Assembly (NCBI GenBank): GCA_021108215.1
Contig: JAIORK010000049.1
Location: 186,001-250,000 of the forward strand
Source: a bacterium
GTDB lineage: Bacteria; Oederibacteriota; JAAXVQ01; JAUVAV01
Direction of reading: 5' to 3'
DNA: 64,000 nucleotides
The position numbers were made by a program, and so were the translations under genes. Of the stretch, positions 49,821 to 61,463 are shown in pieces (position 1 is the stretch's first letter; every line of letters starts with the position of its first letter). Under the pieces are notes generated by a model. The model did no database searches, had not been told where the DNA came from, and worked only from the letters and a program-made list of their open reading frames with translations.

Positions 49821-49975
49821 CGCAACACCCTCCTTGATCTACCTACTACAATCTTCTTACTTATTTACACACGTAACTGTATTCCCGTTTTTTCATTCTC
49901 TTTAAAATAGCACAACTTGATTATTTTTTTATATATATTTCTTCCTCTCAAAGGAAAATCAATTGCGATAAAAAT

Positions 49976-50037
49976 CCACGGGCTTACCCGGCATACGCCT
50001 CCGCATACGCCGGGCAAGCTGGGCAGGCTGCCCGTGG
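49976..50037. repeat. 62-bp palindromic element, copy A
   Basis: Outer 8-bp arms ccacgggc/gcccgtgg enclose a ~46-bp core with an inner hairpin (cccggc/gccggg) and the string gggcaagctgggcaggct. Copy B has the same length and core but different, still complementary, outer arms. Confidence 0.85.
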
Positions 50038-50087
50038 TATTTTTGTCGGGAGATGTTCGCCTGCGGCGATATTTTTACTCGCTTCAC

Positions 50088-50149
50088 CGATGGACTTACC
50101 CGGCATTCGCCCCCGCATACGCCGGGCAGGCTGGGCAGGCTGTCCATCG
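50088..50149. repeat. 62-bp palindromic element, copy B
   Basis: Same core as copy A with about three changes, and outer arms cgatggac/gtccatcg that pair perfectly but differ from copy A. Same orientation, start 112 bp from copy A's start. Confidence 0.85.
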
Positions 50150-50174
50150 TGTTCGCGCCGGCACGATAAAAAAC

Positions 50175-50326
50175 TTTGCATTTGTCATTGCGGGCGAAGC
50201 GAAGCCCCGACCGGATGGGGGATCGTATGGGACTTCCGTTGGTCGCAATCCCGTTTGTATCATCATTTTGCAATCAAAACAGATTGCTTTGTCGCAAAAA
50301 ACGCTCCTCGCAATGATAAATGCAAA
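50175..50326. mobile_element. MITE-like element with inverted ends
   Basis: A stretch of about 152 bp bounded by inverted ends of about 18 bp (tttgcatttgtcattgcg and its near-complement; one mismatch). The inner end carries gcgggcgaagcgaagc, a string like the cattgcgagcgaagcgaag repeats seen in many bacterial genomes. It has no coding frame. Transposition is inferred from the ends only. Confidence 0.65.
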
Positions 50327-50410
50327 AAAGTGTTGGACGCACGACACTGCCTGACAAAGCAATAACTGATTAATCACATGTGTTCATCCACTTTTTTACT
50401 TTTCCGGAAT

Positions 50411-52422: not shown

Positions 52423-52707
52423 CTACCGTACCAGCGGCCAGGTGACTGCAAAAAAAACAACATATAAAATAGCAGCCAGACTTCCGCCCAAACCCATCAC
52501 GGAATGTCTGGAAAAAATAAGAAACACTGACGCTAAAATACCTACTGAAAAAGAAATCAATGCATACGAACCAGCAGACGTAGACGCTATCGGCATGACA
52601 AACATCACCCAAATATACGAAAGTAAATAAATCCCCATAAAAATCGCCAATCCCAATATAAATTGTTTTCGTTCGCCCGTTGCCCGAATTTTAATCTTTC
52701 TTCCCAT
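52423..52707 (-). CDS. Small membrane protein of unknown function
   Basis: The 94-residue protein has a basic N-terminus (MGRKIKIRATGERKQ) and three hydrophobic helices (FILGLAIFMGIYLLSYIWVMFV; ALISFSVGILASVFLIFS; GLGGSLAAILYVVFFAVTWPL). AAAAGGAG lies about 10 nt upstream. It is convergent with the GAF kinase and follows the receiver gene by about 80 nt. No family recognised. Confidence 0.6.
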   Translation of the reverse strand: MGRKIKIRATGERKQFILGLAIFMGIYLLSYIWVMFVMPIASTSAGSYALISFSVGILASVFLIFSRHSVMGLGGSLAAILYVVFFAVTWPLVR

Positions 52708-52788: not shown

Positions 52789-53154
52789 TCAGGTAATCGG
52801 GCCTGCTAAAATTCCGCTTACTTTTTCCTGCAATGTTTTCAAACTAAAAATTTTCGGAATCCTGTCTACTTCCTGATAAATTTTTTCATGTTCCGCGACG
52901 GCAGTCACCACCAGAATTGGAATGACAATGTTTTCTTCCTTCAACGCTTGTCCAAGTTGCTTCCCGTCGATATACGGCATTTTAATATCCAATATAATAA
53001 GATCATATCCATTCAAACGCAAATAATTAAGCGCCTCAATACCGTTTTCAGCCGCTTCAACGGCATAACCCAGATATTCCAGGTACTCCACAACCGGTTC
53101 CCGAATCACAGTTTCGTCGTCCACAACCAATATGCGTTTTTTTTTCATCCCCAT
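52789..53154 (-). CDS. Single-domain response regulator (receiver only)
   Basis: The 121-residue receiver domain has the acidic pair (VVDDE, residues 12-13), phospho-acceptor Asp 56 in LIILDIKMP and the switch Thr in LVVTA. The usual KPF is replaced by PKIF. No output domain, so it should act on another protein, CheY/Spo0F-like. Its start directly abuts the stop of the upstream histidine kinase, its likely phosphodonor. Confidence 0.9.
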   Translation of the reverse strand: MGMKKKRILVVDDETVIREPVVEYLEYLGYAVEAAENGIEALNYLRLNGYDLIILDIKMPYIDGKQLGQALKEENIVIPILVVTAVAEHEKIYQEVDRIPKIFSLKTLQEKVSGILAGPIT

Positions 53155-54852
53155 TTAGGTCTCACCCTCTTGGACTGGAAGTAAAATCGTAAAAATCGTC
53201 CCAACACCTTCACGGCTCTCCACCTCGACAGAACCGCCGTGTTCATTCACGATACCGTAACTGGTCGCCAACCCCAATCCGGTCCCATGCCCTCTTTCCT
53301 TGGTGGTAAAAAAGGGTGTAAAAATATTTTGAAGATCCTCTTTTTTTATCCCGATCCCATTATCTTCAAATTTCACAACAATCTTATTCTCTTTTACGGA
53401 TGTGATGATTTTAAGATAACCGTCTTTTTGTGCCATGGCATCACAAGAATTATTCAGTAAGTTGATAAATACTTGTTCCAGCCGATAACGATCGGCGGAG
53501 ATTTTCGGGATATCTTTTGCAAAAAAAGTCTCTATGTGTACACGGTGAAATTGCTTAAAATTAACCGCCATGGTCAACGTCTCCTGCAAAACTGCATGAA
53601 TATCCACTGTCTGTTTCTTCGGTTGGTCTTGACGTGCAAAGGATAAAAAGCTCTTAATAATACGATCAATACGCGTCACACCCTCCGAGAGTGCATAAAA
53701 AACCTGTTCACGTTTATCCGGACGGGCCAAACCATATTCTAAAAGTTCCAAATTTAACTTAATACCTGTCAGTGGATTATTAACCTCGTGGACAAGACTG
53801 GCCGCCATTTTACCCATACCGGCCAAATGGTTGGTCTGGACAAGTTTATTCCGGATATTTTCCTCCCGGGTGATATCTTCTGTGATCAACACCAACCGGG
53901 TTATATCACCTGGTTCATCCGTCAACTTAACACAGACATACGAGTAACGAATAATTTTTTTTGTTCCCTCCAGCGTCGTATACTCCATCCGCAGCCCGAT
54001 TAAATCCTCACCTTTTTCAAGCAGCATCGCTGCCTTGGGTCGAATAAACTGCTCGGTCAACATTTCCAAAGGAAGTTCGCTGCCGGGTTGTTCCTTCAGC
54101 GTCCCTGCCAAAAAAGCAAACCGAAAATGTACGCCATTGCTATAAAGCAATTTAAGACTCTCATCAATGATAACGACACCTACCGGAATATTTCTCAGGA
54201 TACTTTCCAGTTGTACTTGCGACTGCCGGGCAGCCAAATTTGCCTGCTTGTACTCTTCGATCTTCTCTTTCACCCGTTTGTTCAAGGTCAAATTCAAATC
54301 CCTTAATTGATTCTCCGTCCTTCGTTTGACAACAATCATCCCTGTGCCCAAAATAATAATCATCGCGAAATAAATCAAAATTGCGGATATGGTAAAGGAA
54401 GCATCCAATCCCTGACTCTCCAGGGATTTCAAAAACCCACTTTGCGGAATGTATACAATTCCCAATGCCGCAATAAAAATCAATGCATCCAAAATTGCCA
54501 CGGCAGGCCATGCAACCAAAATTACATTGAATATTATTATGAATGTATATGTAATGACAAAGGTTGCCATAAGATATTGCGGTGCATGCACCACAACGGC
54601 AACCGAATCCGCCGCCAGATGACAAAGAATAAAAATATAGGCACACAGCTGACATTTTTTTTGTCGAATGTTCAGAAAAAGCGCCACGCTATAGACCAAC
54701 GAAAATAGGATTACGCCATAAATGAGAAAACGCTTTTCGACCGGCACAAAAAACGCTTCCAAAGGCCAAACACTAAGCGCTGCCAAAAATGTAACCAGCA
54801 GACTAATTTTCAATAGTTTAAATTCCTGCGTCAATGACTTATCCACAATCAT
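53155..54852 (-). CDS. Membrane-bound PAS histidine kinase (NtrB-like)
   Basis: The ~565-residue kinase has about six hydrophobic helices (residues 15-180), a coiled linker, a PAS domain (ILRNIPVGVVIIDESLKLLYSN ... ITEDITREENI), HisKA with His ~355 (LAGMGKMAASLVHEVNNPLTG) and an HATPase domain (NLLNNSCDAMAQ, FEDNGIGIKKEDL, TPFFTTKERGHGTGLGLATS). The ATG at 54852 is used; a TTG three codons upstream is possible. It follows the lycopene-cyclase-like genes closely and abuts the receiver gene. The membrane domain may sense a lipid or membrane state, which is inference. Confidence 0.9.
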   Translation of the reverse strand: MIVDKSLTQEFKLLKISLLVTFLAALSVWPLEAFFVPVEKRFLIYGVILFSLVYSVALFLNIRQKKCQLCAYIFILCHLAADSVAVVVHAPQYLMATFVITYTFIIIFNVILVAWPAVAILDALIFIAALGIVYIPQSGFLKSLESQGLDASFTISAILIYFAMIIILGTGMIVVKRRTENQLRDLNLTLNKRVKEKIEEYKQANLAARQSQVQLESILRNIPVGVVIIDESLKLLYSNGVHFRFAFLAGTLKEQPGSELPLEMLTEQFIRPKAAMLLEKGEDLIGLRMEYTTLEGTKKIIRYSYVCVKLTDEPGDITRLVLITEDITREENIRNKLVQTNHLAGMGKMAASLVHEVNNPLTGIKLNLELLEYGLARPDKREQVFYALSEGVTRIDRIIKSFLSFARQDQPKKQTVDIHAVLQETLTMAVNFKQFHRVHIETFFAKDIPKISADRYRLEQVFINLLNNSCDAMAQKDGYLKIITSVKENKIVVKFEDNGIGIKKEDLQNIFTPFFTTKERGHGTGLGLATSYGIVNEHGGSVEVESREGVGTIFTILLPVQEGET

Positions 54853-54888
54853 CCATTCCAAACTACCGTGTTTTTCAGACAGTTAGTT

Positions 54889-55425
54889 TTATGCAGTATT
54901 TTCCGGTTGCCAATAACGAACCATCCAGGGAAAGGCCAGAGAAAAAAACAAAATCGCAACCACACCCTCCAGCGGATAGTGAAGCACAGGCAGTATTGTG
55001 TTCCACCGCAGGTTTTCATTATATTGCCAGACCTTTAAAACATGCAAGCCAATTAATTCACTCCCCAAAAAGTACGGTACGCCTATGAGTACATCGGTTA
55101 AAAAAAGGCGTTTGTCACCCCGCATTCCAGCATGTTTTCCAAAAAAGATGCTGCATAATTTTTCCGAAAGCAACACAACCCAGGTAAGATTGATTCCCCA
55201 GCCTATCACCACAAACGGCGAGATATCCCGCCAAATATAAAATTGCATGAAATAGGTCCATGCCGGTTCTGTCATGTATTCCACGCACAGACCGGTTAGC
55301 ATGCCGGCAAAAACCAAAGACCAAAAAGGCTTGTGCCATAGTCTGCTGATGGCAACCCACGAAACAGCAAAAATAACCCCAGTTAATAATTCAGCGCGCC
55401 ATGCAACCAGCCAGTCCCAAATCAC
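54889..55425 (-). CDS. Lycopene-cyclase-domain-like membrane protein, diverged
   Basis: The 178-residue protein has about six hydrophobic helices. Near the C-terminus LPVLHYPLEGVVAILFFSL (residues 146-164) matches the PLEE-type helix of the CrtYc/CrtYd lycopene cyclase domain, but the second Glu is Gly, so activity is doubtful. It starts with GTG, overlapping the previous gene by 4 nt. Last of four tandem related genes and just upstream of the PAS kinase. Family membership is likely but not certain. Confidence 0.65.
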   Translation of the reverse strand: MIWDWLVAWRAELLTGVIFAVSWVAISRLWHKPFWSLVFAGMLTGLCVEYMTEPAWTYFMQFYIWRDISPFVVIGWGINLTWVVLLSEKLCSIFFGKHAGMRGDKRLFLTDVLIGVPYFLGSELIGLHVLKVWQYNENLRWNTILPVLHYPLEGVVAILFFSLAFPWMVRYWQPENTA

Positions 55426-55796
55426 CGCTTTGCCACGCCCAATTTATCCAGCAATAATTGGAACCAACTCTGAAAAACCACCAACGAAGGCACTACCAGA
55501 AAATACAGCAAAAATTCTTCCAGCGGAATCAAACCAATTTTCACGCCCCAAATTTGATTTTCGTTCCATATCCACCAACCCCAATGAAGTGCAATCGTTT
55601 CAGAGATAGTCATAATCACAAGAAAAACAAGCGTAGTCCACAAAAGTGATTTCCATTGTATTTTCTTCAAACAAAACGGAAGACCCGCGATTACTTGAAT
55701 TAATACTCCCAATAACCACCAAACGAGATAAAGGCGCCTTTGACCATGACGGTAGGAGAAGGAGCCTGGTTTTCCATCCACATTATTTTCAGGCAT
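55422..55796 (-). CDS. Lycopene cyclase domain protein (CrtYc/CrtYd-like)
   Basis: The 124-residue protein has three helices (LVWWLLGVLIQVIAGLP; LWTTLVFLVIMTISETIAL; IGLIPLEEFLLYFLVVPSLVVF). The PLEE motif at residues 91-94 after WWIWN is the signature of the small heteromeric lycopene cyclase subunits that cyclise the ends of lycopene in the membrane. AGGAGG precedes the start, which overlaps the upstream gene by 8 nt. No crtB, crtI or crtE is in the window, so the substrate may not be lycopene. Confidence 0.8.
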   Translation of the reverse strand: MPENNVDGKPGSFSYRHGQRRLYLVWWLLGVLIQVIAGLPFCLKKIQWKSLLWTTLVFLVIMTISETIALHWGWWIWNENQIWGVKIGLIPLEEFLLYFLVVPSLVVFQSWFQLLLDKLGVAKR

Positions 55797-56127
55797 TTCG
55801 CCTCCTTGACATATCCAATTTGGCGGACAATCCTGAATAAAGAAAGGTAATCATCCAGGCAAATGGAAACCAAAAAAGATATTCTTCCAGGGGGGCTCCC
55901 CATACATTCACACCGATTAAGCTGCTGTATTGTTCAGAAAATTCCCATGCCTTAAAAATATGCAGACTCAATAATTCATTCAAAACCTGTAGAATCATAA
56001 CTGTAATGGCTGTCAACAAAGCACTCCAACGCCAATAGCGATTCATTTTCGGCCACGCCCAATAAACTGCTGCAATTGCCATGCCGCATAACATCAAGTC
56101 CATGATCATATACCAGGGCAGCTTCAT
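55789..56127 (-). CDS. Lycopene cyclase domain protein (CrtYc/CrtYd-like)
   Basis: The 112-residue protein has three helices and the motif WGAPLEEYLFWFPFAW (PLEE at residues 79-82). Start taken at 56127, one nucleotide after the stop of the preceding gene, so translation is probably coupled; a longer frame to 56298 overlaps that gene and lacks support. One of four tandem related genes. See neighbours for the caveat about missing carotenoid genes. Confidence 0.78.
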   Translation of the reverse strand: MKLPWYMIMDLMLCGMAIAAVYWAWPKMNRYWRWSALLTAITVMILQVLNELLSLHIFKAWEFSEQYSSLIGVNVWGAPLEEYLFWFPFAWMITFLYSGLSAKLDMSRRRNA

Positions 56128-56128
56128 T

Positions 56129-56860
56129 TCATTGCCGCTTCCGGTTGAAACACTCATACAGCGACATTGCCGCCAAGGGGGCGAAAATAAAAAAATTCCA
56201 ATCATCCACAGGAACCCCGGGTGGAAACATCCATCCCAGCGTGGCATGATAGGACCACCATGTTTGAGTAAAAGCAATCCAGTTCCAGAAAAAACCAATC
56301 ACTGTCATCACCACAACTGTTAACCATGCTGCTTTTAGAATGACTCGTCTTTTTTGAAAAAACCATATCCCGATACTCAATCCATTGAACAATACAAGTT
56401 GGCTGATAATATAAAATGGATTTTTTTGAAATTGAACATAACTGATTAAAACCGCAATCATAGCCCCGACAGTTATTCCCGCAATTGACAGCAAATATCC
56501 TTTTCCAGCTCGCGAAGTGAAGTGGAAATACTGTCCCAGTGCCAAATACACGAGAATGCTTAGTGCTCCGCCTAATGGATAAAATAAAATTTCCTCCAGC
56601 GGCAAATGCGGCAGCACCTCAAATCCCAACATAGTATCAGGATTAAAAACCCACCAGCCGCTTAAGGTAACCAAAAAACTCCAGGAATAGCCAAGAAGCA
56701 TTACCAGACCCACTGACTTAAAAAAAGCGGCATAGTCTATATTTTTAGTGTATTTAATCAGAAAAATAATCGGAAACACAAAAAACGAAAGGATTGTCAG
56801 AAAATACCATGGTACTTGGCGGGCATTGCTATCAGGACAATTCGGCATACGACCGGTCAT
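56129..56860 (-). CDS. Double lycopene-cyclase-domain membrane protein
   Basis: The 243-residue protein has about seven helices. The first half carries GWWVFNPDTMLGFEVLPHLPLEEILFY (motif at 87-90). The second half repeats the layout with QTWWSYHATLGWMF and PVDDWNFFIFAPLAA, in which PLEE is replaced by PVDD. Fused two-domain forms occur in fungal and archaeal-type cyclases. GGGGTGGGG precedes the start. First gene of the overlapping four-gene set; the unusual run of nine G (C on the plus strand) lies just upstream. Confidence 0.78.
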   Translation of the reverse strand: MTGRMPNCPDSNARQVPWYFLTILSFFVFPIIFLIKYTKNIDYAAFFKSVGLVMLLGYSWSFLVTLSGWWVFNPDTMLGFEVLPHLPLEEILFYPLGGALSILVYLALGQYFHFTSRAGKGYLLSIAGITVGAMIAVLISYVQFQKNPFYIISQLVLFNGLSIGIWFFQKRRVILKAAWLTVVVMTVIGFFWNWIAFTQTWWSYHATLGWMFPPGVPVDDWNFFIFAPLAAMSLYECFNRKRQ

Positions 56861-57000: not shown

Positions 57001-58341
57001 TTAGGTATCGTTGCTTTTTCTTTTTTCCGCCTTTTTTTTTATTCTTTTCTCAATAATATCTCTAAAGTCCCCCTCCCACCCCAGTTCACCAGGCTCAAAA
57101 AATCTCATTGTCCTAATTTTATCTGGCAAATAGTCATCCGCAACCCAGTGCCCCTCATAATCATGAGCATATTTATACCCTTTTCCATAACCCAGCGTTC
57201 GCATTAATTTTGTCGGAGCATTTCGTATGTGCAACGGAACCTCCAGTTCGCCTTCATCTCGAATTGCTTTCTGTACTAAAAAATATCCTGATTCCAAAGC
57301 ATTGCTCTTCGGAGCAAGACTTAAATAAACCGCTAGTTCAATCAGAGCCAATTTCCCCTCAGGCAAACCTACAAAATTAAAAGCTTGCTGGGCACTCACC
57401 GCCATCATGAGCGCACGCGGATCAGCCAACCCAACATCTTCACTCGCCATGCGCGTCATGCGCCTCAATAAATATTTAGGATCTTCGCCGGCTTCCAACA
57501 TTCTCGCCAGCCAATAAACCGCCGCATCCGGATCCGAACCACGAATACTTTTGTGTAAAGCGGAAATAAGATTATAATGCTCATCACCTTTTTTATCATA
57601 ACGCAGTGCTTTACGCTGCATGGCCTCTTCCGCAATTGCCAGCGTAATACAGGTATTCTTTTCCTCCCCGGCCAAAGCAACCGCCTGCTCAAGCACATTC
57701 AATGCAGCTCTTGCATCCCCATGGGATTTTTGCGCAATGTGCTGCAACGCGCTTTCCTCCGCGCTCACGGCCTGCGCCTCCGTGCCCCGGCCGGCTTCGA
57801 CCAGACCTTTTTTCAGAATACCGATTAAAGACTCTGCGGAAATAGCATTCAACACATACACTTGGCAGCGGGACAATAATGCAGCATTCACTTCAAAAGA
57901 TGGATTTTCCGTCGTGGCACCAACCAAAACAATATCACCTTGTTCGACAAAAGGTAAAAAAGCATCCTGCTGAGCCTTGTTAAAACGGTGAATCTCATCA
58001 ACAAATAAAATCGTCTTACGCTGATGATACCGCATCAAATCCTTCGCAACCGCCAAAACTTCCTTCAACTCTTTTATCCCGGAGGTGACTGCCGAATAGG
58101 ACCGAAATTCCGCTTTAGAATATTTCGCAATAATCATGGCCAGAGTTGTTTTCCCGGAACCCGGCGGTCCCCATAAAATCATCGACGGAATCGTGTCCTT
58201 TTCAATTGCTTTTCGCAAGACACGTCCTGATCCCAAAATATGTTCCTGGCCGACAACATCATCAATCACATGCGGACGCATCCGATCCGCCAAAGGGACC
58301 AGCCCCATATTCCGGTTGTGTGCTGTGTCAAAAAGATCCAT
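57001..58341 (-). CDS. rarA: Replication-associated recombination protein A (AAA+ ATPase)
   Basis: The 446-residue RarA/MgsA/WRNIP1 protein has PLADRMRPHVIDDVVGQEHILG, Walker A LWGPPGSGKTTLA, Walker B TILFVDEIHRFNKAQQDAFLP, sensor 1 LVGATTENPSFEVNAALLSR and the C-terminal tetramerisation part (YKYAHDYEGHWVADDYLP). It acts at stalled replication forks. Start set at 58341, 8 nt after GAGG, giving the usual length; the frame is open to 58425. Standalone gene. Confidence 0.95.
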   Translation of the reverse strand: MDLFDTAHNRNMGLVPLADRMRPHVIDDVVGQEHILGSGRVLRKAIEKDTIPSMILWGPPGSGKTTLAMIIAKYSKAEFRSYSAVTSGIKELKEVLAVAKDLMRYHQRKTILFVDEIHRFNKAQQDAFLPFVEQGDIVLVGATTENPSFEVNAALLSRCQVYVLNAISAESLIGILKKGLVEAGRGTEAQAVSAEESALQHIAQKSHGDARAALNVLEQAVALAGEEKNTCITLAIAEEAMQRKALRYDKKGDEHYNLISALHKSIRGSDPDAAVYWLARMLEAGEDPKYLLRRMTRMASEDVGLADPRALMMAVSAQQAFNFVGLPEGKLALIELAVYLSLAPKSNALESGYFLVQKAIRDEGELEVPLHIRNAPTKLMRTLGYGKGYKYAHDYEGHWVADDYLPDKIRTMRFFEPGELGWEGDFRDIIEKRIKKKAEKRKSNDT

Positions 58342-58457
58342 TTTCCCAACCTCGAAAATTAATTTATTTTCACTGTAGGATACCATGGTAAGCGGGAAAT
58401 GCCATAGACGGAATTTTTTACTCAAACTGATTTGGCAAACTGGTATTTTGTCTATGT

Positions 58458-59381
58458 TTACTGGATATAGACAACCCCGAGTACTTCTCGCATATCGTCA
58501 ATGCCCATTTCTTTTTTCAATACTTCATTAACCAGGATATCTATTTTTCTTGGCGGAATAATCCGGCTCTCAGACGCGGTCACATTGCCTGATTGAATTA
58601 TTTCGATAACTTGCCTGCCAACATCACCAAAGTCAACTGTAAAAGCCAACATAGCACCACTCTTCACATGAAACCGGGATAGCCCCACAAGCGGAATTTT
58701 ATTCTTTCTTGTGTAGTCGGCAATAATTTTTAACGATGCAGGATGAATAACGGTTGGATCGGCAACCAATAAAAGCAAGTCAACCGCATTGCTGGTAAAA
58801 CGCCGGCAAGCTGTCTGGATTTCATCACGCGAGCCGACCGGTACCGCCATAAGCTGAAACTGATGGCTGCCGCCTATTTTCCTGACATGATTCACCAGGG
58901 ATCCTGTCAATCCGGGATTAAAAATAACTCCAATACGGTTCCGCTCCGGAAACAACTCACGCAACAGCTTAATTTGTTGCTCGATTTTTATTCCCACAAG
59001 AATCCCGGAAGCGCCGCGCTTTTTAAAATGAACCTGATCATAAACCAAAGAATAATATACCGGAATATCCAAATGTATGTTTTTTGCTAATCCAACAGCT
59101 TTTTTTCCCATGGCAATCACCAAATCCGTCTTCTCCGGTATAAGACCCAATACTTTCGAGGACGCGATGTTGTGATTTTTAGATAAAATTATTTCTTCCA
59201 GATCTTCTCCCAGTACTTTTACAATCGGGGCTCGAACTTCCTGGTACGGCCCTTTATCATGGCTGAGCACCATGACAACCTTCCCGGCTTCCACCGGGCC
59301 TCCCAAAAAAACGATTTGACCCATCATCATCGTGACAGTGAAACCCATCCAAAGCGCTTTATGCAATTGCTTCCCCAGCAT
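58458..59381 (-). CDS. ABC transporter substrate-binding protein (ABC_sub_bind family)
   Basis: The 307-residue protein has a signal peptide (ending PVEAGK) and the two-lobed fold of the ABC_sub_bind/TrpX-like family (VLSHDKGPYQEV, IPVYYSLVYDQ, IGVIFNPGLTGSLV, DLLLLVADPTVIHPAS, LVGLSRFHVKSGAMLAFTVDF). Such proteins bind small organic ligands in the periplasm and are often paired with a TonB-dependent receptor, as here (30 nt downstream of one). No permease or ATPase gene is in the window, so it may act as a sensor partner instead. Ligand unknown. Confidence 0.85.
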   Translation of the reverse strand: MLGKQLHKALWMGFTVTMMMGQIVFLGGPVEAGKVVMVLSHDKGPYQEVRAPIVKVLGEDLEEIILSKNHNIASSKVLGLIPEKTDLVIAMGKKAVGLAKNIHLDIPVYYSLVYDQVHFKKRGASGILVGIKIEQQIKLLRELFPERNRIGVIFNPGLTGSLVNHVRKIGGSHQFQLMAVPVGSRDEIQTACRRFTSNAVDLLLLVADPTVIHPASLKIIADYTRKNKIPLVGLSRFHVKSGAMLAFTVDFGDVGRQVIEIIQSGNVTASESRIIPPRKIDILVNEVLKKEMGIDDMREVLGVVYIQ

Positions 59382-59411
59382 TCGTCACCTCATGGCAGAC
59401 TAAATTTTCTT

Positions 59412-61463
59412 TTAAAAACGATATTTAATTTGTCCAAAGAAATTTGTCCCGCCGTCCCCGGGGACCACATCGATATTTCTCCGTACATGTTCCGGATACA
59501 ATACTTCCTGTCCAAGAATATTTGTAATTACAAGACTAATCTCAAGGTTTTGAAATATCTGATATGTGGTTTTCCAATTGAGCAACACATGTGCGGGAAC
59601 GACCACTTCCTGACCGGGTGTGAAATCCGGCGATAAGCTGCCGTCAGAAATCGTCCCCTTGCGTTCCCCAATATAGTTTATAGTGAGTACATTGGTGAAT
59701 CCGCTGATCCGATTTTCCAGGGAAGCATTAACAACGACCTGATCAAGATACTGGATGGGACTCCAATCTGATTTTTCCTTTCCTTCTTTATATGAACAAT
59801 TCATTATGTATCCGAGCAGTTTTTCACCTAAAATTTCTCCCCGAATATCAAATTCCACACCATAAATTCTTTGGCCCTCCGCATTTCCATAACCCGGCGT
59901 AGCCCGCGATGGTGTGGTATCGCTTTCCCGATCTTCTAATTCTGTAATTGCCGGAATATCGCCTGATTGATAGGTTACAATACGTCCGATCATATCGTCG
60001 GTTTTCAAACCAAAAAGCGTCAACCTCAGTCCCTGCTTGGCAACACTCCAATCCGCACTCAACTCCAGGGTAGCGATCCTTTCAGGGTTCAAATCAGGAT
60101 CACCATATAAAACGTTACGCGTATTCACATACTTTTCAAAAAATGTCGGATTACGAAAAGCCGATCCGTAAAGTAATTTAACAAACAATTTTTCTGTGGC
60201 TGAATACACCATACTCACGCGCGGCACATAAGTCCCGCCATATTCACTGTTATTGTTATAACGAACGCCGCCCACTACTTTAAGCTTTTCCAGCATGCCA
60301 AACTCCACCTGTGAATAAACAGAAATATCATCCGCAGTATAATCACTTAAAAATGCTGATGCCCAGTGGGATTCATTTAACGCCAGATCATAAAATTCAT
60401 ACGGATCGGTTGCTTGTCTTTCATAGGAAATTCCCGCGCTTACAAATGCCGCCGACCAGATCTCATAGATACCATCAACATCCATCCCGTATTTGGCCCC
60501 GGAATATTTCATATCAATTTCCGTTCCTGCAAATGAATCCATATAACCATCATAAGACGAAATAGCATAATGTACCCGCGCGTTGAGTTGTACTTCCTCC
60601 AGTTTTTTTTCATAATGCAATGTTGAACCACTGGCTGACGTTTCCACCTCACCGGTCATGGCATGTACCGGAACGATCCCGAATTTATCTTTCTCCTGCT
60701 TAAAATGATAGATATCCAACCGGAAATCACCGGCGGAAATATTCCCAAACAGGTTATAAAAATCATTTTCATAGGCATCCTGGTCCAGATCATAATAACC
60801 CAGCTGCGCTGTGATTCCTGTTTCATCAACCGCATCGACCTTGTAGCCCTGGTGCTGATTGTACGAACCTCCGACTAAAAAATCAACCATCTCAAATTTC
60901 ATCCCCAAAGTCAGCTCACCATTGGTCGTTGTCTTACTCCCGGCAGTAACACCAACCTCCATGATGTCTGTGGCTGATTTTGTAATAACACTGATCACCC
61001 CGGCAAATGCACCGGTCCCGTATAAAACCGAACCGGGACCGCGAATAATCTCGATTTTTTTAATAATATTAACCGGGATGGCTTCCAACCAGTGAGTGCC
61101 GACAGTCGCATCGCGAATCGGCGTTCCGTTGAGTAACAATAGCGTCCGGTTGTTATAGTGACTTTCTTTAACACCTCGAAACGCGAGCGACGTATATCCA
61201 AAAAAAGATTCGGAGACAGTGACACCGGGAATACTTTTAATAACATCATATAGGGTTTCGGACGGTGTGCGCGCAATATCTTCAGCAGTAATAACCGAAA
61301 TAACGCCGGGTGCCTGATGAATACTTTCCACTTTTTTAGTGGCAACTGAAACACCCAGGTAAATGAGGTCCTCAAGATCTACATTCGTCTCCTGCGCGCC
61401 GGCATTCCCAACCAAAACAGCGCCAACAAGCACCGCATAAAATATCAACCAACTTTTTTTCAT
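59412..61463 (-). CDS. TonB-dependent outer membrane receptor
   Basis: The 683-residue receptor has a signal peptide (AVLVGAVLVGNAGA), a plug domain (IHQAPGVISVITAEDIART, LYDVIKSIPGVTV, LLLLNGTPIRD, IEIIRGPGSVLYGTGAFAGVISVIT) and a 22-strand-type barrel ending in LVITNILGQEVLYPEHVRR and the terminal aromatic F. These receptors import siderophores, cobalamin or other ligands using TonB. AAGGAG lies 6 nt upstream. Probably an operon with the substrate-binding protein. Ligand not deducible. Confidence 0.93.
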   Translation of the reverse strand: MKKSWLIFYAVLVGAVLVGNAGAQETNVDLEDLIYLGVSVATKKVESIHQAPGVISVITAEDIARTPSETLYDVIKSIPGVTVSESFFGYTSLAFRGVKESHYNNRTLLLLNGTPIRDATVGTHWLEAIPVNIIKKIEIIRGPGSVLYGTGAFAGVISVITKSATDIMEVGVTAGSKTTTNGELTLGMKFEMVDFLVGGSYNQHQGYKVDAVDETGITAQLGYYDLDQDAYENDFYNLFGNISAGDFRLDIYHFKQEKDKFGIVPVHAMTGEVETSASGSTLHYEKKLEEVQLNARVHYAISSYDGYMDSFAGTEIDMKYSGAKYGMDVDGIYEIWSAAFVSAGISYERQATDPYEFYDLALNESHWASAFLSDYTADDISVYSQVEFGMLEKLKVVGGVRYNNNSEYGGTYVPRVSMVYSATEKLFVKLLYGSAFRNPTFFEKYVNTRNVLYGDPDLNPERIATLELSADWSVAKQGLRLTLFGLKTDDMIGRIVTYQSGDIPAITELEDRESDTTPSRATPGYGNAEGQRIYGVEFDIRGEILGEKLLGYIMNCSYKEGKEKSDWSPIQYLDQVVVNASLENRISGFTNVLTINYIGERKGTISDGSLSPDFTPGQEVVVPAHVLLNWKTTYQIFQNLEISLVITNILGQEVLYPEHVRRNIDVVPGDGGTNFFGQIKYRF

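Follow-up and report, generated by a model that had tools for sequence, protein, structure and literature searches.

A tandem set of lycopene-cyclase-like membrane proteins is linked to a histidine kinase and a receiver in uncultured bacteria of candidate phylum FCPU426

The CrtYc/CrtYd pair of carotenoid cyclases and its fused form CrtYcd are built from a three-helix membrane domain carrying a PxEE motif, which is described by the Pfam profile PF18916 and the NCBIfam profile TIGR03462 and for which no relative of solved structure is detectable by sequence. No obvious paralogy was reported for this cyclase type (Klassen 2010, PMC2889829). Membrane proteins as inputs of histidine kinases also have precedent, here used by analogy. 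In Ks-Amt5, an Amt transporter is fused to a histidine kinase and forms an ammonium sensor (PMC5764959), and in Staphylococcus aureus the polytopic, Abi-domain membrane protein SpdC controls WalK and contacts kinases through their transmembrane domains (PMC5854430). Here, we report a locus from an uncultured bacterium assigned to candidate phylum FCPU426, in which cyclase-like genes, a histidine kinase and a receiver are linked and form a single six-gene cassette. The three-helix domain and PxEE motif of the known cyclases are common to three of its proteins. In contrast to a CrtYc/CrtYd pair, however, the cassette has four cyclase-like genes with five domain copies, replaces the W-D motif of ordinary cyclases and is tied to a two-component system in a genome without phytoene synthase.

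The cassette occupies positions 52789–56860 of the 64,000-nt stretch of DNA analysed (hereafter the window). All six genes lie on the minus strand and are read from 56860 down to 52789 in the order P1, P2, P3, P4, kinase, receiver. P1 (56129–56860) encodes a 243-aa, two-domain CrtYcd-like protein with a PLEE and a PVDD motif; P2 (55789–56127) and P3 (55422–55796) encode single-domain proteins of 112 and 124 aa, which have NE and SE, respectively, in helix 2 and PLEE in both cases. P4 (54889–55425), which begins with GTG, encodes a 178-aa membrane protein with PLEG in its C-terminal half. The kinase (53155–54861; 568 aa) combines a membrane part with a probable PAS, a HisKA and an HATPase_c domain, and the receiver (52789–53154; 121 aa) lacks an output domain. 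Hydropathy indicates six membrane segments in P1, three each in P2 and P3, five in P4 and six in the kinase. The four cyclase-like genes had been described as overlapping, which is roughly right: P2 and P3 overlap by 8 nt and P3 and P4 by 4 nt, and a gap of 1 nt separates P1 from P2. The intervals from P4 to the kinase and from the kinase to the receiver are 27 and 0 nt, and the spacing in relatives is comparably tight. On the left, the cassette is flanked by an AAA ATPase gene (57001–58425, minus strand), which we take from its sequence to be rarA, and on the right by a gene for a 94-aa membrane protein (52423–52707, minus strand). Both are found with or without the cassette; rarA lies outside it, and the 94-aa gene probably does so too.

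P1, P2 and P3 match PF18916 with 31.1, 30.7 and 33.9 bits, respectively, all above the cut-off of 27 (E = 3.7e-7, 4.8e-7 and 4.7e-8), and P1 also exceeds the cut-off of TIGR03462 (44.7 bits), below which P2 and P3 remain. In hhalign comparisons with the first domain of the ordinary cyclases, the first domain of P1 (P1a), P2 and P3 reach probabilities of 97.9%, 95.3% and 96.4%, respectively. P1 aligns collinearly with fused CrtYcd (hhalign probability 95%), and P2 and P3 are similar to the single-domain form. P4 matched neither PF18916 nor TIGR03462 nor any other library profile searched. Profile comparison related its C-terminal half to P2 (0 of 40 column shuffles reached the score) and found no demonstrable relation of its N-terminal half to anything tested, so that a sixth domain copy there is unsupported. 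Because P1–P3 match the family profiles and the C-terminal half of P4 is linked by profile comparison only, we regard four of the five copies proposed in the preliminary description as firm and the fifth as weak. Relatives of P4 occurred in 6 of 384 genomes, all within phylum FCPU426. AlphaFold2 models, built on five-sequence alignments, were weak (pLDDT 57 for P1 and 67 for P4); that of P1 places an extra last helix at residues 221–241, and a Foldseek search of the PDB with that of P4 returned no meaningful match. Intact homologues stand in the same order in other genera at about 40–65% identity, and dN/dS is about 0.2 for P1, P2 and P4 and 0.1 for the receiver in the pairs for which it was computable, the remaining pairs being saturated in dS. 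The conserved order and the low ratios of about 0.1–0.2 show that the gene set is not a product of chance.

The motifs of the domain are partly kept and partly replaced. In the first domains of the ordinary cyclases, W-D in helix 2 is invariant (19 of 19 genomes); its place is taken by W-S in P1, N-E in P2 and x-E in P3. For N-E, the alignment of the P2 family is the firmer basis, since the joint alignment has some P2 rows cut short or displaced at the helix-2 column. At the beginning of helix 3, the PxE(E/D) motif has a counterpart in every copy: PLEE in P1a, P2 and P3, PVDD in the second domain of P1 (P1b) and PLEG in P4. W60-S61, PLEE and PVDD of P1 are invariant in all five relatives, as are N50-E51 and E81-E82 of P2, and E66 (the x-E position) and PLEE of P3, in seven of seven each. 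PVDD and PLEG had been called degenerate, a description that does not hold. PVDD corresponds to the normal PxED motif in the second domain of fused cyclases, and both PVDD and the E-G of PLEG are invariant in all examined relatives with the gene (two families), indicating fixed variants rather than decay.

The substrate pathway of an ordinary cyclase is missing. A profile search found no PF00494 protein (the family of phytoene and squalene synthases) in any of eight sampled genomes of the order; the same search was positive in 13 other genomes from the phylum and in 7 of the 14 controls. These and the other genome-wide statements rest on profile searches, and the domain surveys took in hundreds of roughly 98,000 genomes. 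The genomes are metagenome assemblies, that of the source being 3.56 Mb and 97% complete; incompleteness could account for a gene missing from one genome, but hardly for phytoene synthase missing from eight. A TIGR03462 survey of 389 genomes recovered 19 genomes outside the phylum with genuine domains; each has an ordinary cyclase with exactly two copies, compared with four matches and the weak fifth copy in the source genome, and PF00494 is present in all 19. One further weak TIGR03462 match, in genome G053, lies inside an unrelated large polytopic protein and was set aside as chance. Candidates for CrtI in the source genome were likewise rejected, the FAD oxidases being PRK07233- or PRK07208-like or far below the CrtI/CrtD cut-offs. 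One CrtD/CrtISO-like FAD oxidase, below all curated cut-offs, is encoded on contig 64 of this genome (L082:1154–2656) between acyltransferase-like and ketoacyl-synthase-like genes, possibly a polyene or fatty-acid cluster. Rhodopsin, a user of cyclic carotenoid, gave no match, in a search that lacked a positive control and in which no control genome matched either.

These data bear on the most conventional interpretation, that P1, or P2 together with P3, is a divergent but true lycopene or carotene cyclase, supplied with carotenoids by neighbouring organisms or by a phytoene synthase that escapes recognition. The collinearity of P1 with CrtYcd and the above-cut-off Pfam matches of P1–P3 speak for it. 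We nevertheless consider it improbable, given the absence of PF00494 throughout the sampled order, the character of the FAD oxidases, the loss of the otherwise invariant W-D, the five domain copies as opposed to two and, with the reservation just given for that search, the lack of a rhodopsin match. Judged by its sequences, the cassette is not an ordinary carotenoid cyclase: PF00494 is absent, the copies are supernumerary and W-D is replaced, with PxEE kept. With the first enzyme of carotenoid synthesis missing from the genome, a pigment-making family has seemingly been reused, most likely for signalling. An annotation as ‘lycopene cyclase’ in uncultured phyla is thus no proof of carotenoid synthesis.

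The two genes that follow P4 encode a two-component system: a kinase with HisKA (E = 1.6e-12) and HATPase_c (E = 1.4e-26) domains and a conserved histidine, and an adjoining receiver (PF00072, E = 7e-21) whose single domain makes up the 121-aa protein. H358, the phosphoacceptor, and N361-N362 are invariant, and the ATP-binding motifs are conserved. The kinase has no large extracytoplasmic sensor domain. The preliminary description of a PAS kinase and a single-domain receiver directly after the cyclase-like genes is borne out, except that the PAS match falls below the Pfam cut-off (E = 0.08). An output domain on a response regulator is usual, not obligatory.

The cluster was recovered in other genera of the family, and its tight tandem order is found in five genera in total; genes of the cluster are present in seven of the eight sampled genomes of the order. 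For comparison, we use the source genome (G000), four further members of its family (G002–G005), one from the genus of G005 (G001), two genomes of a second family (G006 and G007) and one of a third (G009). G000, G002 and G003 all show rarA, P1, P2, P3, (P4), kinase, receiver and the 94-aa membrane protein gene in this order, P4 being absent from G003. G004 has the same order as far as the receiver, where its contig ends, and in G005 the order is divided between two contigs with both flanks present. In G001 and G006, by contrast, rarA directly adjoins the 94-aa gene, within about 75 bp, with none of the six genes between them, and profile searches found neither cluster nor kinase anywhere in G001. 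The joint absence of all six genes from this site indicates that they were gained or lost together there. The second family carries P2-P3 (G006, at a contig end) or P2-P3-P4-kinase (G007) at another site, with no P1 upstream, and the G007 kinase has no adjoining receiver; the receiver is conserved after the kinase in G002–G005. Not every part is essential: P4 is missing from G003, P1 beside P2 from the second family and the adjoining receiver from G007.

In the third family, a locus of G009 (L103:7913–10263, contig 6) has a P4-like gene between a preceding FAD oxidoreductase gene, which it overlaps, and a membrane hybrid kinase gene downstream. A P4-type gene therefore stands directly before a membrane kinase in three families, a constant pairing set among other neighbours in families f2 and f4. 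The oxidoreductase (559 aa, FAD-dependent) weakly resembles geranylgeranyl reductases and lycopene cyclases, and two more receiver/kinase genes lie upstream. Across 44 genomes of the phylum, the membrane part of the cassette kinase was found only in G000, G002, G003, G004, G005 and G007; these are the cluster-bearing genomes except for the contig-truncated G006. When 84,980 species genomes were scanned for P1 with exact seven- or eight-residue patterns, which would miss distant forms, only four P1-bearing relatives were recovered; they are metagenome-assembled genomes, two labelled candidate division FCPU426 and one Candidatus Firestonebacteria. Plasmid searches with P3 and with the G009 relative of P4 found no match.

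This distribution also addresses whether the kinase and receiver could lie beside the cyclase-like genes with no functional relation to them. Genes surrounding the cassette generally keep their order within the family, so adjacency there is weaker evidence than it appears, and to that extent an accidental neighbourhood would be understandable. Such an explanation is very unlikely, however, in view of the joint absence of all six genes from the empty site, a kinase membrane part never found without the cluster and a P4–kinase pairing that recurs among different neighbours.

Taking these results together, we think it about an even chance that the six genes constitute a membrane signalling cassette, in which P1–P4 would serve as the input module of the kinase with a putative role in binding or converting a non-carotenoid isoprenoid. 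P1–P4, with their CrtYc/CrtYd-type fold, would assemble in the membrane beside the kinase, and the acids retained there (PxEE, and x-E of P2 and P3) suggest a site for a hydrophobic isoprenoid (for instance, a polyprenyl lipid or quinone tail), whose chain the module may still protonate or isomerise. With two polyprenyl synthases and two UbiA-type enzymes encoded in the source genome, the cell has isoprenoids of other kinds at its disposal. The six-helix membrane part of the kinase would sense binding or turnover in P1–P4, and the kinase would then phosphorylate the lone receiver, which, having no output domain, would work by protein contact or in a phosphorelay. We infer the direction of signalling, with P1–P4 as input rather than output, mainly from this missing output domain, which is not decisive. 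The narrower proposal of a multi-subunit receptor with the lycopene-cyclase fold, arising by duplication and recruitment of the family without carotenoid synthesis, detecting a membrane isoprenoid and driving the kinase, is tentative, with somewhat less than an even chance.

The same acids would also suit catalysis. As an enzyme complex, P1–P4 might catalyse the cyclisation or isomerisation of an isoprenoid other than a carotenoid, either a polyprenyl lipid or a quinone side chain, with the kinase and receiver regulating or reporting on the pathway rather than being driven by contact. P2 and P3 strictly retain PxEE and the acids of helix 2, and P1 strictly retains PLEE; polyprenyl synthases and UbiA-type enzymes are at hand, and the P4-like gene of G009 overlaps the oxidoreductase gene described above. 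We regard such a complex as rather unlikely, however, because the receiver offers neither a DNA-binding nor an enzymatic output for gene control and the cassette contains no further isoprenoid gene. The preliminary description, a membrane complex for making or sensing an isoprenoid and signalling through the kinase, or else a new use of the fold, survives, since no phytoene or squalene synthase was found in the source genome or in close relatives, and the kinase stands with the cluster in the relatives whose contig is long enough to show it; the isoprenoid ligand and the single assembly are its conjectural parts. The multiplied fold, the missing substrate pathway and the tie to a kinase indicate either a new membrane-lipid sensor or a new isoprenoid reaction.

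For the signalling cassette that we prefer, the two precedents offer analogies of architecture. In Ks-Amt5, as proposed here, a membrane family with another primary role is recruited as kinase input, but it forms one fused protein, in contrast to the separate cyclase-like proteins encoded beside the kinase. SpdC likewise is a separate polytopic membrane protein that controls a kinase, with no homology to P1–P4 claimed; it differs in being a single protein that acts on many kinases. In the open-access literature, we found no paper linking the cyclase domain with histidine kinases.

Some further loci were noted. A P2/P3-like pair, in which the P3-like member ends in a long C-terminal extension, occurs in G015 (L027:378–1686, on the 5.9-kb contig 658). 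The pair is adjoined on the opposite strand by hybrid kinases and a receiver, which were not counted as evidence of linkage, and the PF00494 genes of this genome are apparently of the squalene (HpnC/D/E) type. Within the window, a TonB-dependent receptor gene adjoins one for an ABC-type substrate-binding protein (PF04392) upstream of rarA (58458–61463). At 49917–50377, several frames are open on both strands and similar peptides recur (for example, ACPAYAG), which suggests short interspersed DNA repeats.
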